Of a stretch of 64,000 nt of DNA, positions 22,412 through 45,151 are shown piece after piece (within the stretch, counting starts at the first letter, position 1; every line of letters begins with the position of its first letter). The DNA comes from Sporopachydermia quercuum. Lineage: Eukaryota > Ascomycota > Sporopachydermiomycetes > Sporopachydermiales > Sporopachydermiaceae. The notes beneath the pieces were generated by a model. It did no database searches. It was not told the origin of the DNA and saw only the letters and a list, made by a program, of their open reading frames with translations. The stretch covers positions 434,001 to 498,000 of the forward strand of contig BCGN01000006.1 in NCBI GenBank assembly GCA_001599295.1, read 5' to 3'. The position numbers and the translations under genes are program-made.

Positions 22412-24384
22412 TATTGAGGTCAAAATGATGCATGATGTACATATTGCTAGATCCTTGGCTGATCTTGAATAGTTTACCATGCGCTCCGGTTGCTCTGGTA
22501 TTTCTCTTCTTTGGATATAATCCCGACACCTGTGTCAGGATGTATGTACAGAGAATAGAGAAGACGTTGGCCGTCACTGTTTGCTCTTCCAATTAAGTAT
22601 AGAACACCATCGGTAATGAATGAATAAGTGAGCTGAGGTAGAGTGCACTTCAAAAGGCAGTTCAAAAGGTAGCTATTGCAAGACTGACTATCACGAATTA
22701 TTTATGAAACTATATTTTGCTTCCTTTTTCATTTGACGTTATGAACAGTAATTAGTGGCCTCTTAACATGTGATTTTATTGGCTATTGATTCAGTGCTGT
22801 TGTACTATAGTGTACTCTATTGTACTATGCTTCCAATTCACTATATATTCTACTGTTTTGAATTTCATTGTATCTATACTATTACAGTTGAGTTGGCTTA
22901 ATCTTGATTTATTTTGGTATATTTCAGTTTATTTTAATTTATTGGAATTCGTTTCATTTTCTTTCCTTTCGTTCCCTTTTGATATAATCTCTTGTATTAC
23001 TAGTCTGAGTTTTGTTTCATGATGTATGTATGTCTGTATAATAACTAATACACTTGTAATATATATAAATGTGATGAACAAGCTAAGCTGGTTTATTAAA
23101 GTAGCATGAATACTTCAAAAGAGAAAAAAGAGAAATGGATCACTTATCTATTGATTCATCTACTATCAATTCATTTACAGTATTTAGGAATTTGTTGTAT
23201 TGTTCGTTTTCAATTGAAAGTCTGTTAACAAACTGGTAAAATGTATGCAAGAAATTAAATAAAAATATCATTTGATGTTCATTTAATCTAGACTATCATA
23301 GTCTTAGTCACTGAAGTTTGATTATATAATGTACTAAATGTATCTAGCTTCACTTCACATCTAAATAAATCAGCAAATTTGCATTGTAAATTCTACAATT
23401 TGGAGTATTTATGGACAATAGGATGTTGTGTTGATTAATTACTATCACATCACTTGAAAAAGATGTAACTGTACTCAAATCTCACATTCAATCTAGCCTC
23501 TTGCTTATTCGATGACCAGTAAATGTTTGACATCAAAAAGCATCCAGCTCAAGGTCAGCTATGAAAACGTTTGACCGAGCGAGGAACAAGGCATTAAGGA
23601 ACAGAAAAAAAAGAAATAATGAAAAATAAAATAAAGGTGAAAGGTAGGCGATGGACTGAACAATTCAAATGCGAGACTATGAACCAAGTTATATCATTAG
23701 TTCCTTGCTACGATTAGACTTGACAGCTTTAAAATTGTTTGTTAGTATTGAGTGATTTCCATTATTCAAACGTTAGTGCTACCTTTAGAGTGGCTAACTA
23801 TTCAGTGGTTTCTCCATTCCGTTGTTCAAGTTTACTTCTATTCCAGGTGTTGCAAGTACTTTGAATCAGTAAGAAAAAAGCAATTTCGAAAGGTGCGATT
23901 CTTATAAAGAGTGCAATTCATCTTCATGACAAATATAATACAAATGCGACATAGTACTATGCATGGATAGATGCGTGATTATTTTTGATCATATGACAGT
24001 TAAGCCAATGTTCTTTCTATAATGCACCAGCCAGGCTTCATTATGTTATTACGTCCGTTGGTTTCACAGATACGATATCTTTGTGTGAATATTGGCCGAA
24101 TATTTTGATTGGAATCCATCTTTCAGCATAGTTCACGCTATTGTTATCGTACCTCGCACAAAAAATCAATGATTCGAGCTTTTCATGCTTGCCTTGGCTT
24201 TTCATGACATTATCCCGTTATATGTGATGATAACATACTTATCAAACAGTTATGTCATTGATTGGGCCAATGAATTGCTAACTCTTCATCTAATAAAAAG
24301 AAAAAAATACCCTCAACCAATCATCAGCAAACTAGCCATCATACAGAGGGTAGCTTACAGTTCTCTTGTTGAAATCACCAAAAT
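22412..24384. other. Intergenic region between convergent SKG3 and MBP1
   Basis: Nearly 2 kb between two 3' ends. It is AT-rich with only short open frames of no known kind. I see no RNA gene or repeat here. Confidence 0.5.
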
Positions 24385-43018: not shown

Positions 43019-44042
43019 ATGTCTGATGAAGTAAGTACCATTTGAATGAGGTTAGGATAGAATAAGTTAAGTGCTTGTTGATAAGAGCAGAAACTAACCA
43101 GGAAACTAGATAATATGGCAAGTAATCAATCAGCAATTTTGTTCGTTTAAGCTGAAAACTACAAAAGAACAAAATTTTTGCAGAAATGAATATAATGTAA
43201 GCGGATTGTGTAGTCGTCAATCATGCCCATTGGCTAATTCACGATATGCTACAGTTAGAAACGTTGAAGGAAGACTCTACCTATACATGAAGACCATTGA
43301 AAGAGCCCATATGCCTAATAGATTATGGGAAAGAATAAAGCTACCTAAAGAATATTCTAAGGCATTAGAACAAATTGATAAACATTTAATCTATTGGCCA
43401 AAGTTTTTAATTCATAAATGTAAGCAGAGACTTACAAGGTTGACACAAGTTGCTATTACAGAAAGACGATTAACCCTCAAAGAGGAAGAACGTCATTATG
43501 TTGGTGTGAAGCCAAAGGTGAAACGACGAGAACAAACCAGAGAGAGAAAGGCTTTGGCTGCTGCTAAGATTGAAAAGGCAATTGAGAAGGAACTTTTGGA
43601 TAGGTTGAAATCTGGCGCTTATGGTGACAAACCGTTGAATGTGGATGAAAAGATTTGGAAGAAGGTTTTGAATGGTGTTGAAGAAACTGAAGGACTTGAA
43701 GAAGAAGAGTTAGAGGAAGATTCTGATTTAGAAGACGAAGAATCTGATTATGGTGAAGTTGAATATGTTGAAGCTGATGAAGATGATGAAGAAAACTTAG
43801 TTGATTTAGAAGATCTTGAAGCATGGCTTGGTGGTAGCGATTCAGAAGAAAATGCTACTGATAGTTCTGATGAAGACAGTTCAGAAGAAGAATCAGAAGA
43901 TGACGCTAAAGCTGGAAGTAAAAGAAAATCATCTGGTAAGAAAGCCGGAAAGAATAAGAGACCTAAAGGACCAAGAGTTGAAATTGAGTACGAAGAGGAG
44001 AGAGAGCCTATTACAAATTTGCAGGCACTTGCTCAATATTAG
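43019..44042 (+). CDS. MAK16: Mak16, 60S ribosome biogenesis factor, two exons
   Basis: Nucleolar protein needed for 60S pre-ribosome assembly and 25S/5.8S rRNA maturation; in yeast it acts with Rpf1 in early particles. Exon 1 (43019-43030) codes only for MSDE. A 79-nt intron follows (donor GTAAGT, branch AACTAAC, acceptor CTAG), then exon 2 (43110-44042); 314 aa in all. Splicing produces [20 protein letters not shown] followed by [24 protein letters not shown], which matches the family N-terminus with its putative zinc-binding cysteines. The frame without splicing would start inside that motif. [40 protein letters not shown] is near-identical to the S. cerevisiae protein. The C-terminus has long acidic runs and a [10 protein letters not shown] nuclear signal. 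Divergent from the pinin-like gene. Confidence 0.95.
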
Positions 44043-44485: not shown

Positions 44486-45151
44486 TTATGCTTCAGCTAA
44501 TTCTCTGAGACGTCTGATAGTAGATCTGACAGTCGTAGCAGCAGGAGTGCTAATAAAATCGTTAGNAACAATTGAACAAAAAATGTTTACAATCAACTAT
44601 ATAATATTAATTATAACTTACGCTAAAGTATAAGCACCACCAGCGATGGTCTTACCACTGGATTGGTCGTACCAAACACCAACAGCTCTTCTCTTAACGG
44701 CATTCTTACCGGTGAAAGGAGACAAGTATCTGGCGTGTTGTTGAACTTCCAACTTCTTACATTGACGTCTTAAGGAAGAACCGTATCTCACACCGTATTT
44801 ACCGGTGATTCCAACCTTCTTAGTTCTCTTAGTCCTGAGATACTGTTAGCATTAATCCTGCAGGTGAATATTGAACTTATTTTGTAATATTCGTTGTATA
44901 TTTCTGAACGATCGAATATTGCTGAATATAAAAAACAATCACATATTTAGAAGATATGATTGAATTTCGTTTCTGAGTTTTGAAGGGACAGATCTTGAAC
45001 AATCTTCGTTATACTTGTGGAACCCAGTACAGTACCGGACTCCGTGCTGCCAAATAAACGTTGAATGTTTACTCTCGTTGTTTATTCCCATAATATCAAC
45101 ACTACAATATAATCAAAAAATCAGTTCTCGTCATTTAGTTAACACTTACAT
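44486..45151 (-). CDS. RPL43: 60S ribosomal protein L43 (eL43, L37Ae family), three exons, no zinc-ribbon cysteines
   Basis: Component of the large ribosomal subunit, 92 aa, the same length as in S. cerevisiae. Exon 1 is only the AT of the start codon (45151-45150). After a 315-nt intron come exon 2 (44834-44622), a 72-nt intron and exon 3 (44549-44486). The split AT/G start is also how the S. cerevisiae genes begin; the second intron is extra. [18 protein letters not shown] and the end [16 protein letters not shown] are standard. The middle is not: where the family has two Cys pairs forming a zinc ribbon (RYDCSFCG and WTCSCCKK in yeast), this reads RYLSPFTG and WYDQSSGK. All zinc ligands are gone while the neighbours VKRRAVGVW and KTIAGGAYT remain. 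The frame is clean, so this is not an obvious pseudogene. The one remaining Cys (RRQCKK) lies outside the ribbon. Confidence 0.93.

Follow-up and report, generated by a model that had tools for sequence, protein, structure and literature searches.

According to the available part of PMC13090322, nine ribosomal proteins with CxxC motifs are conserved across eukaryotes, and bacteria have a pair of S14 proteins of which the C-minus form, with a zinc site devoid of Cys, is used at zinc shortage and the C-plus form keeps the ligands. For ribosomal protein eL43, the accessible portion of PMC2788216 places the protein against uL2 and rRNA domain II. The corresponding portion of PMC6928942 states that Saccharomyces cerevisiae Rpl43 contains zinc in a 1:1 ratio, that replacement of its four Cys by Ser abolishes zinc binding (called unpublished data there), and that this 4C-to-S mutant enters pre-60S particles and does not support growth. 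Zinc-less eL43 (e.g. HVO_0654) has already been published for archaea: in the available part of PMC8305020, Haloferacales are described as lacking the eL43 zinc finger and Natrialbales as having it only very rarely.

Here we describe a yeast eL43 gene that encodes none of the four zinc ligands, located in a stretch of 64,000 nucleotides of Sporopachydermia quercuum DNA (hereafter the window). No zinc-less eL43 of a eukaryote was found in the literature searched, and the eukaryotic case is new here, as far as found. The available text of PMC6321566, on microsporidia, reports that eS31 retains its four Cys there and makes no mention of L43 or L37a.

Gene structure and family membership of the eL43 locus

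The window contains a complete three-exon gene for eL43 (RPL43) on the minus strand at positions 44486-45151, with a predicted product of 92 amino acids (Table 1). The splice sites were inferred from consensus sequences together with the protein alignment. The interval given in the initial annotation, 44486-44834, comprised exons 2 and 3 with the 72-nt intron between them and missed exon 1 at 45150-45151. Both former zinc knuckles lie in exon 2 (44622-44834, minus strand), which encodes the two Cys-less stretches, [10 protein letters not shown] and [11 protein letters not shown]. A single N, at 44566, sits in intron 2 at the likely branch site, TNCTAAC.

Table 1. RPL43 and other features located in the window (window coordinates)
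Feature	Positions	Strand	Remarks
RPL43 exon 1	45150..45151	-	AT of the start codon; joining to 44834 gives ATG ACT AAG = MTK
RPL43 intron 1, 315 nt	44835..45149	-	donor AT/GTAAGT, branch-like TGCTAAC, acceptor CAG/G
RPL43 exon 2	44622..44834	-	last base of ATG, residues 2-71, two bases of codon 72; open frame; PF01780 match
RPL43 former knuckle 1, residues 39-43	44708..44722	-	SPFTG replacing CPFCG
RPL43 former knuckle 2, residues 56-61	44654..44671	-	YDQSSG replacing NCNSCS of P0001, the closest homolog among the matches listed
RPL43 intron 2, 72 nt	44550..44621	-	GTAAGT...TAG; GC/C ACT joined in frame
RPL43 exon 3	44486..44549	-	C-terminal part and stop codon
MAK16 (60S assembly factor)	43019..44042	+	PF04874; adjoins RPL43 tail to tail
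snR36 (H/ACA snoRNA)	23421..23594	-	Rfam RF01242, 88 bits

The spliced protein matches Pfam PF01780 (Ribosomal_L37ae) with 116.7 bits against a cut-off of 21.9 over profile positions 1-85 of 85, a whole-length match above the curated cut-off that places it in the family. It lacks the C4 zinc ribbon formed by C39, C42, C57 and C60 in other members, but this site does not define the eL43 family, because Cys-less archaeal members are still named eL43 in the part of PMC8305020 consulted. Compared with canonical yeast eL43 (Rpl43A/B, YL37a), the length and both ends are unchanged, as previously claimed together with conserved flanks, and 72 of 80 residues outside the knuckles are identical to P0001 whereas only 4 of 12 inside them are; the difference is the missing C4 site. 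The Cys-rich N-terminal part of the neighboring MAK16 lies in another frame upstream, and its 5' end appears to be split by an intron.

Replacement of the zinc ligands and alternative readings of the locus

The four ligands (yeast numbering) are replaced as C39S, C42T, C57D and C60S. A homolog search returned 617 proteins at E <= 0.001, and our residue counts rest on 120 of these that were listed. All 120 have Cys in all four ligand columns, where the window protein has Ser, Thr, Asp and Ser, which bears out the first description of this locus as having lost every metal ligand and fits its remark that a zinc-free eL43 would be unusual in a eukaryote. Two Schizosaccharomyces entries have two additional residues between C57 and C60. 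The second zinc motif of yeast, given earlier as WTCSCCKK, has to be corrected to WTCSSCKK, as in P0056 (an entry named S. paradoxus).

Six residues of the window protein, S39, T42, Y56, D57, Q58 and S60, occur in none of the 120 listed homologs, and all six are inside the knuckles. Were six such residues scattered over 92 positions, all of them would fall within the 12 knuckle positions with a probability of about 1.3e-6, a figure for which the knuckle limits were set post hoc, four of the six residues being the Cys positions through which the gene was noticed in the first place. Judging from the alignment, the change is local, and elsewhere the protein evolves under ordinary constraint. A search with residues 34-75 for relatives sharing the Cys-less stretch returned only P0001, which is Cys-bearing. 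No annotated close relative was seen; the best PRO2 match was 69% identical, and in a single-gene PRO2 tree of 18 rows the window came out next to Magnusiomyces, Nadsonia and Yarrowia, at modest support (87/81). From the four replacements, we infer that the eL43 of this yeast probably functions without bound metal.

The initial annotation had left two options, that the lineage has lost the metal or that the gene is one of two paralogs, the other still carrying the cysteines. In a fast first-look search of the 16.4-Mb, 12-contig genome, no second RPL43 was found when the query was the family profile, the window protein (E up to 10) or the Cys-bearing P0001 (E up to 10); all three queries reached only the window locus, supporting the former possibility and not the latter. 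All nine C4 ribosomal proteins sought were located, so the assembly is not badly incomplete, and the eight other than eL43 gave one cytosolic locus each. A second locus in the uS14 search (L009) was taken, on the basis of its sequence, for a putative mitochondrial protein. The window gene could still be imagined as a zinc-sparing C-minus paralog for times of zinc shortage, with a C-plus eL43 elsewhere, in analogy to the bacterial S14 pair, whose C-minus member also has a zinc site without Cys. Unlike in the bacterial case, however, the Cys-bearing partner was not found here by any of the three queries, and the single cytosolic loci of the other eight proteins likewise argue against such a pair, making this explanation very improbable. 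L31, L33 and L36 are further bacterial ribosomal proteins with C-minus paralogs.

Alternatively, the metal site could have been rebuilt through other ligands, such as D57, the new Ser and Thr residues, C26 and H34. One Cys (C26) and one His (H34) do remain in the protein, but C26 is also present in Cys-bearing homologs, for example P0001-P0004, and H34 is invariant in 32 aligned sequences, so neither residue is new. Moreover, zinc is coordinated poorly by Ser and Thr. We consider a rebuilt site to be no more credible than a hidden paralog.

The codon usage of the gene bears on whether it is in use. Codon adaptation of eL43 was 0.733, compared with 0.668-0.753 for six other ribosomal proteins (leave-one-out) and 0.252-0.565 for the 17 long open reading frames of the window; the reference consisted of the exons of these six proteins and is small, with eL43 scored against six and each of the others against five. 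The zinc region by itself (residues 37-66, 29 codons scored) reached 0.819. Judged by its codons, eL43 has the pattern of a highly expressed gene, and the altered part is without a sign of decay. A search for shared promoter words upstream of seven ribosomal protein genes gave nothing convincing, with four of the seven stretches lying upstream of an inner exon and thus mixing intron and promoter. The domain of Puf6, an eL43 chaperone (PF08144), is present in the genome and does not discriminate between the readings. A decaying or unexpressed copy, with the working Cys-bearing gene missing from the assembly, might be entertained because the assembly may be incomplete and parts of it can be masked as N. 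Against it stand the ribosomal-gene codon usage including the altered part, the intact frame and splice sites, the confinement to the knuckles of the residues absent from the 120 listed homologs, and the presence in the assembly of nine out of nine C4 ribosomal proteins sought. This possibility is, if anything, slightly less probable than the two preceding ones.

The codons now found at the ligand positions, TCT, ACC, GAC and AGT, are at least six base changes away from Cys codons. Although the window has 21 scattered single N bases, a sequencing or assembly error is practically negligible as an explanation, because these changes are all in frame, none of the N bases falls in an RPL43 exon, the neighboring residues 56 and 58 are changed as well, and the frame is otherwise intact, just as the clean frame described at the outset. 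The 21 isolated N bases, about one per 3 kb, are perhaps masked heterozygous sites.

The reading we prefer, with a probability of roughly 0.85, is that the window encodes an ordinary eL43, the sole copy found and presumably expressed, which has lost zinc binding and whose knuckles are now metal-free beta turns.

Zinc sites in other ribosomal proteins

Two simple descriptions of zinc use in this genome were considered and rejected. Zinc loss across all ribosomal proteins is incompatible with eL37, eL40, eL42, eS27, eS26 and eS31, six C4 proteins that retain their Cys (for eL42, the first Cys pair was read by eye from a stretch apart from the rest). Zinc loss confined to eL43 fails because uS14 and eL34 are each down to one Cys. 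The cytosolic uS14 (L010, G000 C6:221481-221582, plus strand) has one Cys of four left, with the replacements C24T, C39G and C42A; it has a weak PF00253 match, was spliced by eye and reads ...[30 protein letters not shown].... The assignment of L010 to a mitochondrial protein was rejected, as splicing by eye gave the cytosolic uS14. The eL34 protein (L092, G000 C9:864088-864330, plus strand) reads KCGDTG...SRSANAVK, also with one Cys of four left.

Comparable losses are found in yeast ribosomes of known structure. One Cys is kept in uS14 of PDB entries 3j80 and 6uz7 (QCRISGSH...NIDRQSF) and in that of 9axt from S. pombe (QCAHTGRR...NISRQSF). The eL34 of 6uz7 (KLLA0C08371p) reads KCGDTG...SKSANAVK, with replacements nearly identical to those in the eL34 of this genome, and the three other eL34 chains shown (8oeq, 9g1z and 7pzy) keep KCGDCG...SRCANC. 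We take the KLLA names in 3j80 and 6uz7 to denote K. lactis. The eL43 of the 6uz7 ribosome keeps all four Cys. Like zinc-less uS14 (3j80/6uz7, 9axt) and eL34 (6uz7), the window eL43 is a cytosolic ribosomal protein of a yeast in which a C4 site has been lost; it differs from these two in that one Cys of four is kept there and none in eL43. Since yeast ribosomes with zinc-less uS14 were solved, zinc-site loss is survivable in principle. Going by the sequences compared, loss of the uS14 and eL34 sites occurs in at least one other yeast, whereas eL43 has lost its site in no other yeast seen here, and it is this loss that distinguishes the genome in the data seen. That two yeasts share the losses in both eL34 and uS14 would merit a survey.

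Among the eL43 homologs, P0090 from Neocallimastix is a single predicted protein with both a uS14 part (PF00253) and an eL43 part (PF01780), which may be a fusion of gene models; its uS14 part seems to be without two of the zinc-site Cys (CCRVTENR...NLCRQAF).

Comparison with haloarchaeal eL43 and possible compensation

A scan with a Haloarcula protein yielded at least 91 relatives, and the 80 loci retained from them are a sample of haloarchaea rather than a survey of archaea; among these matches listed, 47 are Cys-bearing and 33 are Cys-less. In the 33 listed Cys-less proteins, position 57 is Asn in 32 and Asp in one, and positions 60 and 61 are Thr and Gly throughout. Position 56 is Val or Ile in 20 of the 33 and Lys in 12, compared with Gln or Glu in 43 of the 47 listed Cys-bearing proteins, and G61 is also found in 26 of these 47. 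Knuckle 1 has a four-residue deletion in all 33. The deletion and the knuckle 2 motif common to these 33 proteins (L059-L091) suggest one or a few loss events. Several Cys-less records are, going by their titles, from a Halobacteriales or Haloarculaceae archaeon (e.g. L059, L065, L076 and L091); in the available part of PMC8305020, all Halobacteriales keep the eL43 zinc finger.

The window eL43 resembles the haloarchaeal zinc-less proteins in having no Cys ligands and in the haloarchaeal-type N/D-x-x-T/S-G sequence at knuckle 2, which is N/D-x-x-T-G there and D-x-x-S-G (DQSSG) here. Residue 60 is Thr there and Ser here, and residue 56 is often Val or Ile there and Tyr here. At knuckle 1 the two differ, because the four-residue deletion of the haloarchaeal proteins is absent from the window protein, which keeps the length with SPFTG. 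Across the 17 open reading frames of the window, 16 of 10974 positions match [ND]xx[ST]G, so the match at knuckle 2 is unlikely to be due to chance, with the reservations that the motif was noticed after seeing the sequences and that G61 is not confined to Cys-less proteins. From the general behavior of beta turns, N/D/S-x-x-S/T-G would be expected to favor a type I turn with a G1 bulge, near the geometry of a zinc knuckle but without metal. It looks as if knuckle 2 of the yeast protein and that of the haloarchaeal proteins have converged on a metal-free turn. Any such convergence is limited to knuckle 2, as the haloarchaeal knuckle 1 is shortened, and the yeast loss presumably had a separate origin, because Cys-bearing yeast eL43 proteins are far closer relatives.

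Because the 4C-to-S mutant of S. cerevisiae fails to support growth (PMC6928942, in the part available), plain loss of the zinc site would be expected to be lethal, and some compensation is implied in this yeast. We propose that the compensation would lie in eL43 itself, with Y56, D57, Q58, T42 and G61 as candidates, or in its partners. Under the preferred reading of a metal-free eL43, both knuckles would have been rewritten as [S/D]-x-x-[T/S]-G beta turns, SPFTG and DQSSG. These turns may keep the same small beta domain in shape through side-chain hydrogen bonds, helped by Y56 as an additional hydrophobic residue. The protein would then occupy the normal eL43 position of the 60S subunit, adjacent to uL2 and close to the E site, with its function unchanged.

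To model the region, exon 2 was submitted to AlphaFold2 with 31 relatives, and the Cys-bearing P0001 served as a control. The model of the window protein has strands at residues 45-51, 54-57 and 63-65, of which the last two flank the former knuckle 2, with a pLDDT of about 80 over residues 42-61; P0001 has strands at 47-51, 54-57 and 63-65 and a pLDDT of 81-83 over residues 41-60. Mean pLDDT values of 62 and 67, respectively, indicate moderate confidence in both models. The top PDB matches in Foldseek were ribosome chains, the first of them Rpl43 (3j6x_83), with a poor overall superposition (TM score of about 0.55 and r.m.s.d. values mostly around 10-11 Å). These models show compatibility with the fold and not stability without zinc, because the aligned relatives are Cys-bearing.

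We find it somewhat probable, with less assurance than for the metal-free state of the protein, that this yeast is a eukaryote whose sole eL43 is metal-free and has taken its own route to the haloarchaeal turn at knuckle 2; this would be part of a site-by-site loss of zinc from a yeast ribosome in which the eL43, uS14 and eL34 sites have gone and six of nine C4 sites are kept. If this is true, the zinc of eL43, reported as needed for growth of S. cerevisiae, would be dispensable by way of a small, defined set of substitutions. The natural Cys-less eL43 of this yeast would provide a ready test of the substitutions by which a ribosomal zinc ribbon can become independent of its metal, and it would allow one to ask whether archaea and yeasts arrived at a common solution. 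Genome surveys could then establish in which order yeast ribosomes lost their zinc sites.
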